From contig NZ_JACETV010000002.1 of NCBI RefSeq assembly GCF_013912375.1, forward strand, positions 806,001 to 870,000: DNA of 64,000 nucleotides. Direction: 5' to 3'. Positions within the stretch are counted from its first letter, which is position 1, and the number at the start of each line of letters is the position of its first letter. This stretch comes from Emticicia sp. BO119 (GTDB lineage: Bacteria; Bacteroidota; Bacteroidia; Cytophagales; Spirosomataceae). The notes under the pieces are model-generated. The model saw nothing but the letters and a program-made list of their open reading frames with translations. It made no database searches and was not told the DNA's origin. Shown here piece after piece: positions 11,584-32,396 of this stretch. The translations under genes were made by a program, and so were the position numbers.

Positions 11584-11628
11584 GAGGGGAGATTAAAAAT
11601 CATCTCCCGACAATTTTAATCTCCCCTC
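11584..11628 (-). terminator. Hairpin terminator of the thiolase gene
   Basis: A perfect 15-bp inverted repeat: GAGGGGAGATTAAAA (11584-11598) and TTTTAATCTCCCCTC (11614-11628), with a 15-base loop. It begins 36 bases after the thiolase stop codon (minus strand) and lies before the ThuA promoter. A strong U-run is lacking, but the stem is GC-rich and perfect. Probably a terminator separating the two transcription units. Confidence 0.65.
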
Positions 11629-11664: not shown

Positions 11665-12843
11665 TTAATTCAGGAATTCATATATACCTGCCACACCTTG
11701 TCCGCCACCTACGCAGGCAGTTACCATACCGTATTTCTTATTCTGACGGCGAAGCTCGTTCAGCACCTGAACTGATAATCTGCCTCCGGTTGAACCCAAG
11801 GCATGCCCTAAAGCAATTGCGCCACCGTTCGGGTTAATTTTGTTCATATCTAAACCTAATTCTTTGATAACAGCTAATGATTGTGCAGCAAAGGCTTCAT
11901 TCAATTCGATTACATCAATATCATCCTGTTTCAAGCCTGCCTGTTTTAATGCTACCGGAATAGCTGCTACAGGGCCGATACCCATAATACGAGGTTCAAC
12001 CCCTGCCGAGGCGTAGGCCATCATGCGAGCAATGGGTTTCAAGCCTAATTCATTCACCATTTTCTCTGACATCACAATCACGAAAGCGGCACCATCTGAA
12101 GTTTGTGAAGAGTTACCTGCTGTTACACTCCCGTCCATCGTGAATACAGGTTTTAGTTTGGCCAATGCTTCTAAGCTTGTATCAGCGCGTGGGCCTTCGT
12201 CTTTTGTAACAGTGTATTCTTTGGTTTTCTTTTTGCCCGAATTCTGGTCAAAGAATGTTTCCTGCACTTTAATCGGCACAATTTCTTCATCAAATTTGCC
12301 TTCTGCCTGTGCAGCTAAAGCTTTTTTGTGAGAATTGTAGGAAAACAAGTCTTGTTCTTCACGACTGATACCGAATTGCTGGGCTACCTGTTCGGCAGTT
12401 AAACCCATACCAATATAATAATCAGGATGTGTAGATGCCAGATTATAGTTTAAGGCTGTTTTCCAACCCATTGTTGGCACTAATGACATCGATTCTGTAC
12501 CACCAGCCACAATACAATCGGCCATTCCGGCATGGATTTTAGCGGCTGCCATTGCAATTGTTTCTACACCTGAACCACAATAGCGGTTTACGGTTACACC
12601 CGGTACGGTTTTGCCCAATGCTAATAACGAGATGTAACGTGCCATTTGCATGCCCTGCTCTGCTTCCGGTACGGCGTTTCCTACGATTACGTCCTCTACA
12701 CGGGCAGGGTCTAAATTTGGAACGCTTGCCATCAGATGTTTGATAACCTCTGCCGCTAAATCATCAGGGCGGGTAAAACGGAATACTCCTTTAGGTGCTT
12801 TGCCGACTGCACTACGGTAGCCAGCGACTATATATGCATTCAT
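11665..12843 (-). CDS. fadA: Acetyl-CoA C-acyltransferase (beta-oxidation thiolase)
   Basis: 392 residues, the usual thiolase length. The nucleophilic cysteine is C89 in 'VNRYCGSGVET'. The C-terminal catalytic residues appear in 'GGAIALGHALGSTGGR' (His) and 'TACVGGGQG' (second Cys), and 'IELNEAFAAQ' is present. It catalyses CoA-dependent cleavage of 3-ketoacyl-CoA in fatty-acid oxidation. The FadN-type fusion gene ends 76 bases upstream on the same strand, so together they form a fadN-fadA type unit supplying steps 2-4 of the cycle. The symbol is by function; an exact ortholog assignment would need a tree. Confidence 0.88.
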   Translation of the reverse strand: MNAYIVAGYRSAVGKAPKGVFRFTRPDDLAAEVIKHLMASVPNLDPARVEDVIVGNAVPEAEQGMQMARYISLLALGKTVPGVTVNRYCGSGVETIAMAAAKIHAGMADCIVAGGTESMSLVPTMGWKTALNYNLASTHPDYYIGMGLTAEQVAQQFGISREEQDLFSYNSHKKALAAQAEGKFDEEIVPIKVQETFFDQNSGKKKTKEYTVTKDEGPRADTSLEALAKLKPVFTMDGSVTAGNSSQTSDGAAFVIVMSEKMVNELGLKPIARMMAYASAGVEPRIMGIGPVAAIPVALKQAGLKQDDIDVIELNEAFAAQSLAVIKELGLDMNKINPNGGAIALGHALGSTGGRLSVQVLNELRRQNKKYGMVTACVGGGQGVAGIYEFLN

Positions 12844-12919: not shown

Positions 12920-15328
12920 TTAATTTCTTGGGGGTTTCCCACCGCTTAATAGTCCTTGCATACGCTCCAATGTTTTCTTTTCACCTGTCAAAGAAAGGAA
13001 AGCCTCTCTTTCAAGGTCTAAAAGATACTGCTCTGAAACATTCTGCGGATAACTTAAATCACCACCACAAATCACATAAGCTAATTTATCAGCAATTTTA
13101 GCATCATGTTCAGTAATATATCTACCCATGAGCATACCCGTAATACCCGCTTTGAAAAGCGCAATCCCGGTTTTACCTTGAACCTTAATATCTGTGCGTT
13201 GCTTAGGCTGAGTGTATCCATCTTCGGCCAGTTTGATAGCTTCTTCTTTTGCTTCAGCAATCAGACGACTACGGTTCAGCACGATTCTGTCTTTATCCGG
13301 TTTCAGATAATTCATGTCAAACGCCTCTTGTGCTGAGGTAGAAACTTTAGCCTGAGCAATGTTCATAAAGGCAGACTGTAGAATATTTAATTCAGTATCA
13401 CCGGTATGATACATATCCGAGCAACGAACAGCCATTTCTTTTGTTCCACCACCGGCAGGAATCAGACCAACACCTAATTCAACTAATCCCATATAAGTTT
13501 CGGCATGAGCCAGCACTCTGTCAGCATGTAGATTCAACTCACAACCACCGCCTAAGGCCAGACTATGAACGGCTGTTACAACAGGTATAGAAGAGTATCT
13601 GGCACGCATCATCGTTTGCTGGAATTGCGCAATCATCATATTGATTTCGTCATACTCCTGCTCAATGGCAAACATGAACAGCATAGCTAAATTTGCTCCT
13701 GCTGAGAATGCTTCATTTGAATCATTTCCTACTACCAAACCTCTGAAATCTTTTTCTGCAACGGCATAGGCTTTGTTTAGCCCTTCCACCACTTCTGCGC
13801 CGAAAGTATTCATTTTTGAGTGGAACTCTACTCCAGCAATGCCATCACCTAAATCGAAAATGGTAGAACCCGCATTTTTCCAGATAACGTTTGTCTGGCG
13901 AAGATTATCCAGAATAATAAACGACTCTGTGCCCGGAATTACTTTGTATGATTTACTTGGAATATCATAGTATTTCTTTTTACCTCCCTCGACTTTATAG
14001 AAAGTTTCGTTACCTGCTTCTAACATTTCATATACCCATGCAGCAGGTTTCATATTCAGGTCTTCCATGATTTTGAGCATCGGTTTTACACCAATGGCAT
14101 CCCATGTTTCAAAAAGACCCAATTCCCAACCAAAGCCCGCACAAATGGCTGAATCTATTCTATATAATTCGTCAGATATTTCAGGAATACGATTGGTTGA
14201 ATAGCGGAAGAAATCGGCAAAGGTTTTTCTGTAGAATTCACCTGCATTGTCTTTTCCGGCTAAAAGCACCGAGAATCGTTTCTTCAAATCGTCAATGCTT
14301 TTGGTGGTTTCGAGCGTAGCAAATTTTACTTTTTGCGATGGTTTATATTCAAAAGTTTTCAGGTCTAAAGCCAGAATAACCGTCTGACCTTTTTCGTCTT
14401 TGGTTTTTTTATAGAAGCCTTGTCCGGTCTTATCACCCAGCCACTTGTTTTCCATCAGTTTCACCATAACCGGCGGCAATTGGAAAGCATCTTTCGACTC
14501 ATCATTCTCTAAAACCTTTGATAAATTATTACATACATTCACAGTTGTATCCAGACCCACCACATCAGACAAACGGAAAGTGCCTGATTTCGGACGGCCA
14601 ACAACAGGGCCGGTCAATTTATCTACTTCTTCAACCGTCAAGCCCATTTCTTCTGCTACTCTAATGGTTTGTACCATTGCATAGATACCCAGGCGGTTGG
14701 CAATAAAAGCCGGTGTATCTTTACATAGTACGGTTGTTTTGCCTAAATACAAATCGCCATAATGCATCAGAAAATCAACAATGGCCGGGTCTGTCTGAGG
14801 CGTTGGAATAATCTCCAGCAAGCGCAGGTAGCGAGGAGGATTAAAGAAGTGTGTGCCGCAGAAATGTTTCTGAAAATCTTCTGAACGGCCTTCTGCCATC
14901 AGATGAATAGGAATACCGGAAGTATTAGAGGTAATCAGAGTACCGGGTTTACGGAACTGCTCTACTTTCTCATAAATCGATTTTTTGATGTCTAATCGCT
15001 CAACTACTACCTCAATAATCCAGTCATAATCCTTGATTTTAGGCATATCATCGTCGAAATTACCCAGTTTTACACGAGTAACCGACTGCTGACTAAAAAC
15101 AGGGGATGGACTGGCTTTAACAGCCGCCATAAACAATTCATTAACGATTCTATTACGTACTGCCGGATGAGTAGTATCAAGGCCTTTGGCTTTCTCCGCA
15201 TCATTAGGCTCGCGTGGTACCATGTCGAGTAGCAGTACTTCTACTCCAATATTAGCAAAGTGCAAGGCAATACGACTACCCATAATACCCGCACCTAAAA
15301 CAGTTACTTTTTTTATACTACGATTCAT
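12920..15328 (-). CDS. fadN: 3-hydroxyacyl-CoA dehydrogenase / enoyl-CoA hydratase fusion, FadN type
   Basis: 802 residues. The dehydrogenase half comes first: NAD-binding 'VLGAGIMGSRIALHFANIGVEVLLLD' (about 9-34), 'SNTSGIPI' and 'FCGTHFFNPPRYLRLLEIIPT' (His in the catalytic site) at about 135-175, then a C-terminal 3HCDH domain (about 200-300) and a second 3HCDH-like segment near 370-430. The crotonase half follows: 'FSAGANLAML' (about 555-564) and 'LALGGGCELNLHADRVLAHAETYMGLVELGVGLIPAGGG' (about 605-645). This order is as in Bacillus FadN, the reverse of E. coli FadB. It performs hydration and NAD-dependent oxidation in beta-oxidation and pairs with the downstream thiolase. No acyl-CoA dehydrogenase is adjacent. 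Confidence 0.9.
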   Translation of the reverse strand: MNRSIKKVTVLGAGIMGSRIALHFANIGVEVLLLDMVPREPNDAEKAKGLDTTHPAVRNRIVNELFMAAVKASPSPVFSQQSVTRVKLGNFDDDMPKIKDYDWIIEVVVERLDIKKSIYEKVEQFRKPGTLITSNTSGIPIHLMAEGRSEDFQKHFCGTHFFNPPRYLRLLEIIPTPQTDPAIVDFLMHYGDLYLGKTTVLCKDTPAFIANRLGIYAMVQTIRVAEEMGLTVEEVDKLTGPVVGRPKSGTFRLSDVVGLDTTVNVCNNLSKVLENDESKDAFQLPPVMVKLMENKWLGDKTGQGFYKKTKDEKGQTVILALDLKTFEYKPSQKVKFATLETTKSIDDLKKRFSVLLAGKDNAGEFYRKTFADFFRYSTNRIPEISDELYRIDSAICAGFGWELGLFETWDAIGVKPMLKIMEDLNMKPAAWVYEMLEAGNETFYKVEGGKKKYYDIPSKSYKVIPGTESFIILDNLRQTNVIWKNAGSTIFDLGDGIAGVEFHSKMNTFGAEVVEGLNKAYAVAEKDFRGLVVGNDSNEAFSAGANLAMLFMFAIEQEYDEINMMIAQFQQTMMRARYSSIPVVTAVHSLALGGGCELNLHADRVLAHAETYMGLVELGVGLIPAGGGTKEMAVRCSDMYHTGDTELNILQSAFMNIAQAKVSTSAQEAFDMNYLKPDKDRIVLNRSRLIAEAKEEAIKLAEDGYTQPKQRTDIKVQGKTGIALFKAGITGMLMGRYITEHDAKIADKLAYVICGGDLSYPQNVSEQYLLDLEREAFLSLTGEKKTLERMQGLLSGGKPPRN

Positions 15329-15424: not shown

Positions 15425-16126
15425 CTAAACATTAACACCAAAAAAGTAGCCTACTAACGCCGAAAGCCCCATAGCAACTGTACCCCAGATCGTAATTCTC
15501 ATAATGGCTTTCCTGACACTTGAACCACCGGTTTTTGCTGATATTATTCCTAAGATAATTAAAAATAAGATTGTAAACCCGTAAAGCCAATATTCCATTC
15601 CGGTCACGGGTGTAAGTAATGTTACTAACAGGGGTAGTATTCCGCCTACAGTAAATGATGTACCCGACGCCAGCGCTGCCTGAAGTGGATTTGCCTGACT
15701 AATCTCATTGATACCTAATTCGTCTCTGATGTGAGCCCCTAACGCATCAGCATCTGTTAACTCTTTAGCAACCTGCCAGGCGGTTTCTTTCTTTAAGCCT
15801 CTTTTCTCATAGATTTGAGCCAGAATTTGTAGTTCTATTTCAGGCATTTCTTTTAATTCCTGAGCTTCTCTTCTTATATCTGCCTTTTCAATATCGGTCT
15901 GCGAACTAACAGAAACATATTCACCGGCTGCCATTGATAGAGCACCGGCAACCAGACCTGCCACTGTAGCTAAAATAATAGGCTCTCTTGTTGAACTTGC
16001 GGCAGCTACACCTATTGCAAGACTTGATATAGAAATAATTCCGTCATTTGCACCTAATACAGCAGCTCTCAGCCAGTTACTTTTATGTATATAATGGTTA
16101 TCTAAATAGTTATCTATTGTTATCAT
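15425..16126 (-). CDS. VIT1/CCC1-family iron/manganese transporter
   Basis: 233 residues. The first helix 'WLRAAVLGANDGIISISSLAIGVAAA' (about 19-44) and second helix region 'AGLVAGALSMAAGEYVSVSSQTDIEKAD' (about 55-82) are the hallmark of the VIT family, with the G-x-N-D and metal-binding E/D residues. A cytosolic helical metal-binding segment (about 80-140, 'EAQELKEMPEIELQILAQIYEKRGL') is followed by three more helices. The family moves Fe2+ or Mn2+ out of the cytosol. It stands alone: 96 bases upstream of the fadN start and about 200 bases from the DUF4442 gene. No metal-responsive operator was recognised. Confidence 0.88.
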   Translation of the reverse strand: MITIDNYLDNHYIHKSNWLRAAVLGANDGIISISSLAIGVAAASSTREPIILATVAGLVAGALSMAAGEYVSVSSQTDIEKADIRREAQELKEMPEIELQILAQIYEKRGLKKETAWQVAKELTDADALGAHIRDELGINEISQANPLQAALASGTSFTVGGILPLLVTLLTPVTGMEYWLYGFTILFLIILGIISAKTGGSSVRKAIMRITIWGTVAMGLSALVGYFFGVNV

Positions 16127-16328: not shown

Positions 16329-16817
16329 TTATTTCTTCAGAACCCACGCCCAGTTCATCTCTGCTACAACAACTTCTTCTTCCGTTTCATCAATAATTTT
16401 TACAGCTACATTAATATCGCCTTTATCTGTTTCACGAATCTGGCTAATTTGCTGCTCTGTCAGCGTTGCTATGGCTTTTTGTTGGCCTTGACTACGTCTG
16501 ATAAATTTTACTGAGAGATTTTTCATCAAAGGCAATTTGTTGTCGGGGATATTCATACCCACCACCATCCCAGTAGCAGTTTCAGCCAGAAGGGTAGTAG
16601 CCGCAGCATGAATCTGCCCGATATGATTCTGAACTTTAGTTTTGTTGGGAAGTGTAACTACAACCTCACGACACGTCATTTTTTCGAAATGGATACCTGC
16701 TGTGCCAACGAATTTAACAAATTTACCGATGGAATAATTAAGTAACCAATTTTGCAGAAAAGCTGGCATTTTCTGAACCTTTGCAAGGTTTCGGTTAAGG
16801 TTGTTGTTATATTCCAT
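16329..16817 (-). CDS. DUF4442 hotdog-fold (thioesterase-like) protein
   Basis: 162 residues from the ATG at 16815-16817. A longer open frame to 17057 exists, but its first 80 residues read through the promoter and operators and look non-coding. The DUF4442 / YiiD-C hotdog domain is seen in 'GKFVKFVGTAGIHFEKMTCREVVVTLPNKTKVQNHIGQIHAAATTLLAETATGMV'; the N-H-x-G-x-x-H-A-A helix is the thioesterase-like motif. Members are thought to hydrolyse acyl-CoA thioesters, though few have been assayed. The promoter carries two copies of the palindrome found at the second thiolase gene (31197), linking it to fatty-acid metabolism. Confidence 0.8.
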   Translation of the reverse strand: MEYNNNLNRNLAKVQKMPAFLQNWLLNYSIGKFVKFVGTAGIHFEKMTCREVVVTLPNKTKVQNHIGQIHAAATTLLAETATGMVVGMNIPDNKLPLMKNLSVKFIRRSQGQQKAIATLTEQQISQIRETDKGDINVAVKIIDETEEEVVVAEMNWAWVLKK

Positions 16818-16886
16818 TAGGATTGAGAGAAAGATATTAGTATCTTTAGATGATTTTTTTACGACCATCTCAGAACTAAATAATAG

Positions 16887-16898
16887 TATGCAAGCATA
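16887..16898. promoter_or_regulatory. Operator palindrome TATGC-AA-GCATA (site 1, DUF4442 gene)
   Basis: The 12-base near-palindrome TATGCAAGCATA has 5-bp arms and a 2-base centre. It lies 9 bases past the -7 box on the minus strand, overlapping the predicted transcription start region. The same 12 bases occur at 16931-16942 and 31152-31163. Its position suggests repressor binding. Confidence 0.65.
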
Positions 16899-16907
16899 AT
16901 TATCCGA

Positions 16908-16937
16908 CAAAGATACAGGAAACAAAATATTATGCAA
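16908..16937 (-). promoter_or_regulatory. Predicted promoter of the DUF4442 gene
   Basis: On the minus strand the -7 box TATCTTTG (16915-16908) is preceded at 19 bases by TTG (16937-16935). This is an excellent match to TTG-N19-TAnnTTTG. The -33 TTG lies inside operator site 2. Predicted transcription starts near 16902, giving a leader of about 85 bases. Confidence 0.7.
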
Positions 16938-16942
16938 GCATA
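16931..16942. promoter_or_regulatory. Operator palindrome TATGC-AA-GCATA (site 2, DUF4442 gene)
   Basis: An identical 12-base palindrome centred 44 bases (about four helical turns) from site 1. It covers the -33 element of the DUF4442 promoter. Flanking bases are also conserved: CATACTAAT follows this site and the thiolase site at 31152, and site 1 read on the other strand has CATACTATT. Confidence 0.65.
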
Positions 16943-17137
16943 CTAATATAAAATTTATTCGCAACAAATTAAGGATAAATAAGGCAATAAAAATTTTGTA
17001 TTGGTGAGGGTTTTTATGAAACCATTTTTTTGTGGCATTGGTTTTTATTGGTGACACTCAGATATAACACTCTACCATTAGATTATTTTTATTGATTTAA
17101 TATTATTCGATAAAAATTAAAATCACTATTTGTTTAT

Positions 17138-29850: not shown

Positions 29851-31038
29851 TTATGTTAATTTTTTGCGTAAAACTCCAAATCCTATAGTCGCTACTAAAC
29901 CCAACGACCCTAAGATATACCAAAGTGCATCGAAACCAAATAAGGCGATGGTTTGTGTACCTATCAAAGGTGCAGAAATCTGGGCTACCGACCAGCTCAT
30001 GGCATACAGCGCCGAATACTGACCTCTGTTATGAGGTTTTGCTCGCTCAATACTAAAGGCGTTCATAAATGGCATGGCAAACATTTCGGAGAAGGTTGCA
30101 AAGATAATCCCTACAAGCAGCCACGTATAATTGTGTGTAAGCAAGAAAATAATGTAGTTCGGTATTACAAGAAAAGCCCCGAAACTGATAAGCGATAAAC
30201 GTTTGAATTTTCCTTCAATTTTATAAATAAAAACCATCTCAAATATGGCTACTACCAGGCCATTTAGCCCTAATAAATATCCAATCTGTACTTCTGTCAG
30301 ATTACAAGCCTGTTTATAAAAAAGCGGCCCGATGGTAAATAGTTGCGAAAAGGCAATAGCATATAATGATGCAAGTACAATAAATATCATATACGTGCGG
30401 TCTCTTAACGCCGAATCTCTTTTATTGATGACGACTTCTGTGGCTATCGTTTCTTTGTGCCTTCTTGTCCCTCTCAGAAAAGTCCATACAAATAGTCCTG
30501 CCCCGATATTGGTCAGCCCATCTGCCCAGAAAAGTAAATCATAGTTTCTTGCCGCTAAAAAACCACCAATGGCAGGGCCGATAGACCAGCCTAAATTAAT
30601 GGCTAAACGTATCATTGAAACCGAGCGTGTAAAAGTTTCTGGTGTGCTGAAATCGGCAATAGAAGCAGAGTTAGCCGGACGGTAGGCTTCGCCAAAGGTG
30701 CTCAACAAAAAAGCATAAATACAGAGAAGGTAGAAATGTTGAGTATGCACCATCACGATAAACATGATTCCACCTAAAAGCAAGCTCCAGAATTGTACAG
30801 GATAGTAGCCTATTTTATCAGTCAGTTTTCCACCCATCCATGTACCAAAAATAGAACCAATGCCAAACATAGTCATGACAATCCCGGCCTCCCGCACACT
30901 GAAATTCAGTTTTTGAGTCAGATAAACTGTCAGGAAAGCAATGACCATCGTACCGCTACGATTGATGAACATCACAATTGCCAATAACCACACTTGCCGG
31001 GAGAGTCCACCGAAAGCATTACGAAATAAGGAAATCAT
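29851..31038 (-). CDS. MFS transporter
   Basis: 395 residues with about 12 membrane helices. The motif A variant 'GTWMGGKLTDKIGYYPVQFWSLLLGG' (about 65-90) and the helix 5 motif 'RLAINLGWSIGPAIGGFLA' (about 143-161) support the drug/multi-solute MFS group (YfcJ/MdtH-like). Its promoter is back-to-back with that of the second thiolase gene, and the operator palindrome lies 31 bases upstream of its -33 element. It may therefore be co-regulated with the thiolase; the substrate is unknown. Confidence 0.85.
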   Translation of the reverse strand: MISLFRNAFGGLSRQVWLLAIVMFINRSGTMVIAFLTVYLTQKLNFSVREAGIVMTMFGIGSIFGTWMGGKLTDKIGYYPVQFWSLLLGGIMFIVMVHTQHFYLLCIYAFLLSTFGEAYRPANSASIADFSTPETFTRSVSMIRLAINLGWSIGPAIGGFLAARNYDLLFWADGLTNIGAGLFVWTFLRGTRRHKETIATEVVINKRDSALRDRTYMIFIVLASLYAIAFSQLFTIGPLFYKQACNLTEVQIGYLLGLNGLVVAIFEMVFIYKIEGKFKRLSLISFGAFLVIPNYIIFLLTHNYTWLLVGIIFATFSEMFAMPFMNAFSIERAKPHNRGQYSALYAMSWSVAQISAPLIGTQTIALFGFDALWYILGSLGLVATIGFGVLRKKLT

Positions 31039-31089: not shown

Positions 31090-31120
31090 CAAAGGTAATA
31101 TTTTATGTGCTTGCTTCAAA
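31090..31120 (-). promoter_or_regulatory. Predicted promoter of the MFS gene
   Basis: On the minus strand TTTG (31120-31117), 19 bases, then TACCTTTG (31097-31090). A full match to the Bacteroidota consensus, about 50 bases before the MFS start codon. It overlaps the divergent thiolase promoter. Confidence 0.7.
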
Positions 31121-31141
31121 CTAAAGTATTTCTTAGTTTTG
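31111..31141 (+). promoter_or_regulatory. Predicted promoter of the second thiolase gene
   Basis: TTG (31111-31113), 20 bases, then TAGTTTTG (31134-31141). Transcription would start about 31147, immediately before the operator palindrome, leaving a leader of about 50 bases. Confidence 0.7.
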
Positions 31142-31142
31142 T

Positions 31143-31164
31143 CATACGAGGTATGCAAGCATAC
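31143..31164. promoter_or_regulatory. Operator with three half-sites at the thiolase promoter
   Basis: GTATGC-AA-GCATAC (31151-31164) is a perfect inverted repeat with 6-bp arms containing the same 12 bases as the two DUF4442 sites. An extra CATAC half-site (31143-31147) precedes it. It begins 10 bases past the -7 box, matching the position of site 1 at the DUF4442 promoter. Likely a repressor operator shared by fatty-acid genes. Confidence 0.65.
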
Positions 31165-31196: not shown

Positions 31197-32396
31197 ATGG
31201 AAGCATATATATATGACGCCATCCGCACTCCCCGCGGTCGCGGCAAATCTGATGGTTCTCTGCATGATGTTCAGCCTATACAATTACTTTCAACGGTCTT
31301 AAAATCTTTAAAAGAACGTAATGATTTAGATACCAGTCTTGTCGATGATGTTATTGTAGGTTGTGTATCCCCAATTGGCGAGCAAGGAGGCGATATTGCT
31401 CGTGCGGCAGTATTAGATGCTGGTTACTCCCAGACAGTGGCCGGTGTACAAGTGAATCGTTTCTGTTCATCTGGCCTGGAGGCTATTAATATGGCGGCCG
31501 CTTATGTGATGTCTGGTCAGGTAGATTTATTGGTAGCTGGTGGGGTAGAATCTATGTCACGCGTGCCAATGGGGTCTGATGGAGGCGCTTTGATGATGAA
31601 CCCACAACTGATATCTCATCATAAGATTGTACCACAAGGTATCTCTGCCGACTTGATTGCTACAAAATATGGTTATTCAAGAAATGATGTAGATACTTTT
31701 GCGGCTGAGTCAGTTCGCAGAGCAGTAGAAGCACAAAAGAATGGCTATTATAAATCAATGGTGGCTGTGAAGGATGAAATCGGACTGACGGTTTTGGAGA
31801 GAGACGAAGGTATCAGACCGGAGACAACTGTAGAATCATTAAGCAAACTCAAACCAGCATTTGAAATGATAGGCAGCATGGGGCTTGATGCCTTGGCCTT
31901 AATGAAATACAATCATTTAGTGAATATCAATCACGTGCATCATGCCGGAAACTCATCTCAAATCAGCGATGGGGCCGGGGCATTGCTGATAGGTAATAAA
32001 GAGACTGGAGCAAAGTTAGGTTTGAAGCCACGAGCCAGAATCAAGTCTTTTGCCATAGTAGGATCAGACCCTACGATTATGTTGACAGGGCCTATACCTG
32101 CGACACAAAAAGTATTAAAGAGAGCCGGAATGAGCATAAATGATATAGATATTTTTGAGATTAACGAAGCCTTTGCCGCAGTACCCATGCTATTCATGGA
32201 TAAATTGGGCGCAGACCATAGCAAAGTGAATGTGAATGGTGGTGCTATTGCTTTAGGGCACCCACTTGGTGCAACGGGGGCTATTCTTTCTACAACTCTG
32301 CTTGATGAAATGGAACGTTCAGATAAAACCGTTGGTTTGGTAAGCCTTTGTATTGGTGGAGGCATGGGAATCGCTACTATTTTTGAGAGAATTTAA
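31197..32396 (+). CDS. Acetyl-CoA C-acetyltransferase / thiolase
   Basis: 399 residues. The active cysteine is C90 in 'VNRFCSSGLEAINMAA'; the catalytic His is in 'NGGAIALGHPLGATGAI' and the second Cys in 'LCIGGGMGIATIFE'. 'FEINEAFAAVPMLF' and 'HHAGNSSQISDGAGALLIG' are standard thiolase segments. It differs from the first thiolase of this window (11665-12843), so the two probably act on different chain lengths or branches. It is transcribed from the promoter and operator at 31111-31164 and ends before a strong terminator. Confidence 0.9.
   Translation: MEAYIYDAIRTPRGRGKSDGSLHDVQPIQLLSTVLKSLKERNDLDTSLVDDVIVGCVSPIGEQGGDIARAAVLDAGYSQTVAGVQVNRFCSSGLEAINMAAAYVMSGQVDLLVAGGVESMSRVPMGSDGGALMMNPQLISHHKIVPQGISADLIATKYGYSRNDVDTFAAESVRRAVEAQKNGYYKSMVAVKDEIGLTVLERDEGIRPETTVESLSKLKPAFEMIGSMGLDALALMKYNHLVNINHVHHAGNSSQISDGAGALLIGNKETGAKLGLKPRARIKSFAIVGSDPTIMLTGPIPATQKVLKRAGMSINDIDIFEINEAFAAVPMLFMDKLGADHSKVNVNGGAIALGHPLGATGAILSTTLLDEMERSDKTVGLVSLCIGGGMGIATIFERI

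Follow-up and report, generated by a model that had tools for sequence, protein, structure and literature searches.

Fatty-acid breakdown has well-known regulators in Proteobacteria and Bacillus, and both FadR and PsrA place scattered β-oxidation genes under the control of one regulator. Members of the MarR family, namely MarR, SlyA/RovA, MepR, FabT and CouR, share with the system reported here the winged-helix MarR domain and fold, a palindromic operator and the presence of that operator in the regulator's own promoter, and SlyA-type operators also have GC-AA-GC at their centre. For Bacteroidota, our literature search for a regulator, a motif or a gene set found no regulator of fatty-acid breakdown among the matches listed, with subscription papers and preprints outside its scope. 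The main text of a study of a flavobacterium reports strong up-regulation of β-oxidation genes in the presence of fish mucus and plasma, and the word MarR is absent from that text (PMC9723704). Here we describe a palindrome in Emticicia sp. BO119 that is very likely the operator of a MarR-family regulator controlling its own gene, most probably a repressor of β-oxidation. This reading is based on sequence comparison, which shows the operator itself, where it sits in promoters, which genes it precedes and that it stands before marR.

The palindrome was noticed in a 64,000-nucleotide stretch of the genome (the window), upstream of a thiolase gene (31197–32396, plus strand, 399 aa; identified with Pfam and NCBIfam). 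A sequence-only reading of the window had described an exact palindrome located 10 bases past the -7 box of this gene, and both observations held: GTATGC-AA-GCATAC (GTATGCAAGCATAC) occupies positions 31151–31164 (unstranded) and starts 10 bases past the last base of a TAnnTTTG-type box, TAGTTTTG, read at 31134–31141 on the plus strand. A TTG at 31111–31113 on the same strand, 20 nt before the box, is the probable -33 element. The -7 box consensus TAnnTTTG has been mapped at -12 to -5 in Flavobacterium psychrophilum, as given in the text of PMC9723704; setting the boxes of the window at the same distance predicts transcription starts at 31146 for the thiolase gene and 16903 for a second gene discussed below, so that the thiolase operator would span +6 to +19. 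An additional CATAC half-site (31143–31147, unstranded) had been counted as part of the operator. We rejected it as a component, because the pair of thiolase promoters most similar to it (L111 and L112) have CAGAG and CAAAG at this place; it is not conserved and is probably incidental. The start of a divergent MFS transporter gene (29851–31038, minus strand) is 113 bases away from the thiolase operator, which this gene might share.

A near-identical copy with the same promoter geometry had been claimed at a DUF4442 gene (16329–16817, minus strand, 162 aa; profile search), whose product presumably has a hotdog thioesterase-like fold. We found two copies there, each with one mismatch and neither assigned a strand, lying 44 bp apart from start to start. 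The one nearer the gene (16886–16899) is separated by 8 bases from the -7 box TATCTTTG (16908–16915, minus strand) and is predicted to cover +5 to +18 on the minus strand; the outer one (16930–16943), on the other side of the box, is predicted to cover -40 to -27. The central TTG of the outer operator (16935–16937, minus strand) occupies the -33 position, with a spacer of 19. Among orthologues, a site with at most two mismatches was found upstream of the thiolase gene in 22 of 25 genomes, Emticicia sp. BO119 included, and in the DUF4442 promoter in 11 of 15 loci, each list taking in one or two genomes outside Spirosomataceae.

Downstream of DUF4442 on the minus strand lie a VIT1-family gene (15425–16126), fadN, which encodes an 802-aa 3-hydroxyacyl-CoA dehydrogenase/enoyl-CoA hydratase (12920–15328), and fadA, which encodes a 392-aa thiolase (11665–12843). 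A terminator-like hairpin follows fadA (11587–11608, minus strand) and is weak as a signal, with two such hairpins in the region versus a shuffle mean of 4.5. The sequence-only reading had reported no motif before fadN/fadA, which is correct for the DNA directly upstream; it does not place the unit outside the regulon, since DUF4442 with its two sites precedes fadN. Of 50 loci, 10 (our own and nine relatives) have DUF4442 upstream of fadN in the same orientation, at spacings of 28 to 1,101 bases; six of these pairs are 28–409 bases apart, and in our genome the distance is 1,003 bases, with the VIT1-family gene between. This arrangement across relatives suggests that the DUF4442 operators are probably also those of the fadN/fadA unit of the window, in which case DUF4442 would be co-transcribed with fadN–fadA, and we therefore rejected the exclusion of fadN/fadA from the gene set.

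Within the window, matches with up to three mismatches were not above chance (8 found versus a shuffle mean of 5.7), as would be expected of a chance or non-regulatory repeat such as a mobile repeat or an RNA element. The genome-wide motif search that had been proposed as a check gave a different picture. The whole genome contains 14 GTATGCWWGCATAC sites with at most one mismatch, versus 1 for the reversed control, and GTATGCNNGCATA gave 8 forward and 10 reverse matches, corresponding to 13 distinct sites, versus 0 and 1 for the controls. In addition, KTATGCNNGCATAM occurs exactly 14 times, at 12 places; these exact matches were taken from a one-mismatch scan whose control applies to its full set of matches (66 versus 51). 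The counts far above reversed controls bear out the earlier judgement that coincidence is unlikely. Together with the enrichment before lipid genes, the specific gene set and the conservation before orthologous genes with low controls described below, they leave a chance or non-regulatory repeat with next to no probability.

The genes at these places, identified with Pfam and NCBIfam profiles on the genes downstream of the sites, agree with the fatty-acid (acyl-CoA) gene set that had been anticipated: 11 of the 12 places precede β-oxidation, lipid or electron-carrier genes or a MarR-family gene. Besides the window's thiolase (one site) and DUF4442 (two sites), they comprise genes for FadE, with two sites (L057), another acyl-CoA dehydrogenase (L056), SCP2, ahead of an acyl-CoA dehydrogenase (L058), a 157-aa protein upstream of a FadJ-like multienzyme (L059), a fatty-acid hydroxylase (L054), and EtfB, assigned by Pfam, with a downstream gene taken as EtfA from position and similarity only (L060). 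Two further targets at distant loci, a 442-aa 4Fe-4S protein (L052, 3640–4968) and a 266-aa cysteine-rich CCG protein (L053, 4061–4861), resemble what we take to be the two halves of an ETF:quinone/menaquinone oxidoreductase. Upstream of the MarR-family gene (L057:11987–12454), at 44 bases from its start, lies a perfect palindrome, GTATGCCTGCATAC. The one exact site of the 14 without a lipid or marR gene, TTATGCGTGCATAA at C12:880825 (L020:1501–1514), is flanked by a sigma-70-type gene about 260 bases away and an ORF without a Pfam hit. A near-site, ATATGCAAGCATAC, precedes a DUF3089 gene (L055). Alignment of 14 sites from this genome, including the L055 near-site and leaving out C12:880825, gave an extended operator of approximately AATAGTATGC-WW-GCATACTATT.

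Considering that Bacillus, Thermus and Pseudomonas use TetR-type regulators for fatty acids, a FadR-like or PsrA-like TetR protein encoded elsewhere might bind the palindrome, and a TetR-family gene with the motif in its own promoter had been suggested as something to look for. The search found instead a single MarR-family gene with a perfect palindrome, the only other regulator being the sigma-70-type gene at the non-lipid place. No TetR gene was identified among the genes immediately 3′ of the 12 places, the position covered by this check, and the motif precedes a MarR gene across the class. We therefore rejected the TetR regulator and consider this explanation highly improbable. The MarR-family gene is the likely regulator, as it carries the palindrome in its own promoter across the class. 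It lies at C26:140986–141450 of the genome, and its protein shares 96% identity with its counterpart in Emticicia sp. C21. The MarR domain PF01047 was detected at 46.0 bits, versus a cut-off of 24.6 (E = 4.8e-12), and its Pfam and NCBIfam hits include no TetR model and neither the GntR nor the FadR C-terminal domain; the NCBIfam FabT model scored 25.3 bits, versus a cut-off of 200. An AlphaFold2 model (pLDDT 92.1) has the MarR fold, and the 50 matches listed in a structure search with this model were MarR-type by title (Z 14.4–16.6), with sequence identities to solved relatives of 12–27% among them.

To follow the regulator and its site across genomes, we used an E value of at most 1e-8 to define MarR orthologues. 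They were found in 48 of 58 genomes, our own and all 36 Spirosomataceae included. In a separate set from class Bacteroidia, MarR was found in 74 of 149 genomes. A site with at most two mismatches was present within 400 bases upstream of marR in 43 of the 48 genomes (the other five MarR genes have none at this threshold). At the same mismatch limit, a site within 250 bases was found in 77 of 80 named loci, most of which belong to Emticicia, Spirosoma, Runella, Dyadobacter, Larkinella or Arcicella, as well as in 28 of 30 class genomes. These three sets share members, the 30 class genomes containing our own and two others of the 48, and the genomes are related, so that the counts are not independent. 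By comparison, six control palindromes, one of which shares the ATGC-GCAT core, had matches with at most two mismatches in 22 of 888 promoter tests. The alignment of MarR proteins comprised 47 orthologues, L084 being left out owing to a stop in the matched stretch. Across the class set, our own protein aside, MarR identity is only about 47–60%, which indicates that conservation of the operator is old.

The neighbourhood of marR is conserved as well. In 20 class neighbourhoods, hand-picked from the 74 MarR-bearing class genomes, fadN lies directly 3′ of marR (less than 200 bases away, same strand) in 19, and within 6 kb of marR fadA was found in 18 and fadE in 17. The usual layout in the class is marR–fadN–fadA–fadE. 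An operator was present upstream of fadN in 36 of 43 MarR-bearing versus 0 of 8 MarR-lacking genomes, and outside Spirosomataceae in 8 of 11 versus 0 of 8 (Fisher p = 0.002); this comparison is partly circular, as the site counted in the marR–fadN layout is often the site before marR. It leaves out two fragmentary fadN matches (G023 and G004) and reaches about 1,500 bases, so that our own genome and G003 were scored negative, their DUF4442 genes starting more than 1,400 bases away and the sites lying farther out than the stretch covered. Three layouts keep an operator with fadN: marR–fadN, DUF4442–fadN, and fadN with a site and neither gene directly upstream. Where fadN is separated from marR, it often has its own site or that of DUF4442. 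G019 (L376, L100), a reduced Spirosomataceae genome of 2.7 Mb, retains MarR and fadN and has zero operator copies at one mismatch or fewer in the whole genome.

The reach of the regulon differs between Spirosomataceae and the rest of the class. The 36 Spirosomataceae genomes contain 368 sites versus 43 for reversed controls, or 0 to 17 per genome (mean 10.2). A site was present in 34 of 34 etfB promoters and 30 of 33 promoters of the Fe-S gene in this family, totals made up of 30 and 27 (G039 aside) plus 4/4 and 3/4 from added family genomes. In MarR-bearing genomes outside the family, 2 of 11 etfB and 0 of 10 Fe-S promoters had a site; G039, another such genome, also has none in its Fe-S promoter, and MarR-lacking genomes had none in 16 etfB and Fe-S promoters. 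The etfB and Fe-S sites thus fail to discriminate (2 of 21 MarR-bearing versus 0 of 16 MarR-lacking; Fisher p = 0.32), and we rejected them as a mark of MarR presence. As MarR-bearing genomes outside Spirosomataceae mostly lack these sites, the wide set with etfBA and the Fe-S carriers is, judging from the sites, a trait of the family, and the site at the head of the operon is what the class shares. Over whole genomes outside the family the difference was weak: 12 MarR-bearing genomes had 32 sites (controls 20) and 10 MarR-lacking genomes had 10 (controls 5; Mann–Whitney p = 0.019).

Twelve chosen class genomes contained 45 sites versus 6 for controls, with none in G117. Twelve of the 45 are at marR, and about one-third of the other 33 precede recognisable lipid genes, including those for EtfBA (L303 and L311), FadE (L300), fatty-acid hydroxylase (L296, and L315 as the second gene downstream), a short-chain dehydrogenase (L305), an AidB-like acyl-CoA dehydrogenase (L307), phasin-like proteins (L306 and L310) and an alpha/beta hydrolase (L309), each as the first or second gene after the site. 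The remaining sites had no recognised lipid gene in a comparison that for most of them consisted only of BLAST to our own genome's protein set. Phasin-like genes follow the operator in two other lineages (L306:2522, below the PF05597 cut-off, and L310:2517, above it), which hints at a link to polyhydroxyalkanoate granules.

The position of the operator bears on how the regulator might act. Around 97 sites, we found 80 exact -7 boxes (background density 0.0032 per base), a count that draws on related sequences and enters one box twice for two-site promoters; 29 boxes have 5–10 bases between box and site, 42 lie on the far side after 10–17 bases and 9 are elsewhere. In the far-side class, the centre on the coding strand is TT in all nine DUF4442 sites, and in Spirosomataceae MarR promoters it is TT in 13, CT in 10 and AT in 1. 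Of the 20 far-side sites outside the family, just 4 have a TT centre, which confines the reading of the central TTG as a -33 element to Spirosomataceae. The offset windows used in this comparison of centres left many thiolase sites unclassed. The location of many sites on or next to the -33 region, and not downstream of the start, might indicate that the MarR protein is an activator, or works in both modes depending on site position, and MarR-family proteins such as SlyA can activate. The thiolase and inner DUF4442 sites, however, lie at about +5 to +19, a position typical of repressors, and the outer sites overlap the core promoter, so that activation appears unlikely, if less remote than binding by a TetR protein. 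Both positions, after the -7 box and over the -33 region, fit steric repression as predicted from the promoters.

Under repression, we infer the following sequence of events. When fatty acids are absent, a MarR dimer would cover about 22 bp, roughly the extended operator, either just past the -7 box, as at the thiolase gene (about +5 to +19), or over the -33 region; at DUF4442 and FadE, dimers might sit at both positions, 43–44 bp apart. The bound dimer would block RNA polymerase, and a fatty-acid-derived ligand, probably a long-chain acyl-CoA, would release MarR. For the history of the system, we lean towards a model in which a MarR-type repressor heading a marR–fadN–fadA–fadE operon was the ancestral β-oxidation switch of Bacteroidia. 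In Spirosomataceae it would have grown to a regulon of about ten sites by adding the thiolase, etfBA and the Fe-S electron carriers, and a fadN that left marR would have kept an operator through DUF4442 in front of it or a site of its own. In the family's outer sites, the central TTG would double as the -33 element, with sigma factor and repressor competing for it. If true, this would offer a clean example of a regulator expanding from a single operon to a regulon, with the operator staying with its targets through rearrangement. A candidate regulator, an exact operator, a list of targets and genomes that lack marR make the proposal directly testable.

Compared with described systems, the regulator is similar to CouR, which by title has been solved with an acyl-CoA-type ligand (5cyv), and to FabT, which has the MarR fold and acts in lipid metabolism (6jbx; Z 14.4, rmsd 2.7, 140 aligned residues). 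FabT differs in controlling fatty-acid synthesis, not breakdown. Unlike the known MarR-family repressors, the regulator has predicted targets in fatty-acid breakdown, with fadN, fadA and fadE following marR. FadR of E. coli (GntR family), and FadR of Bacillus and PsrA (both TetR family), belong to different protein families and have different operators, and the present regulator would nonetheless work as FadR and PsrA do.
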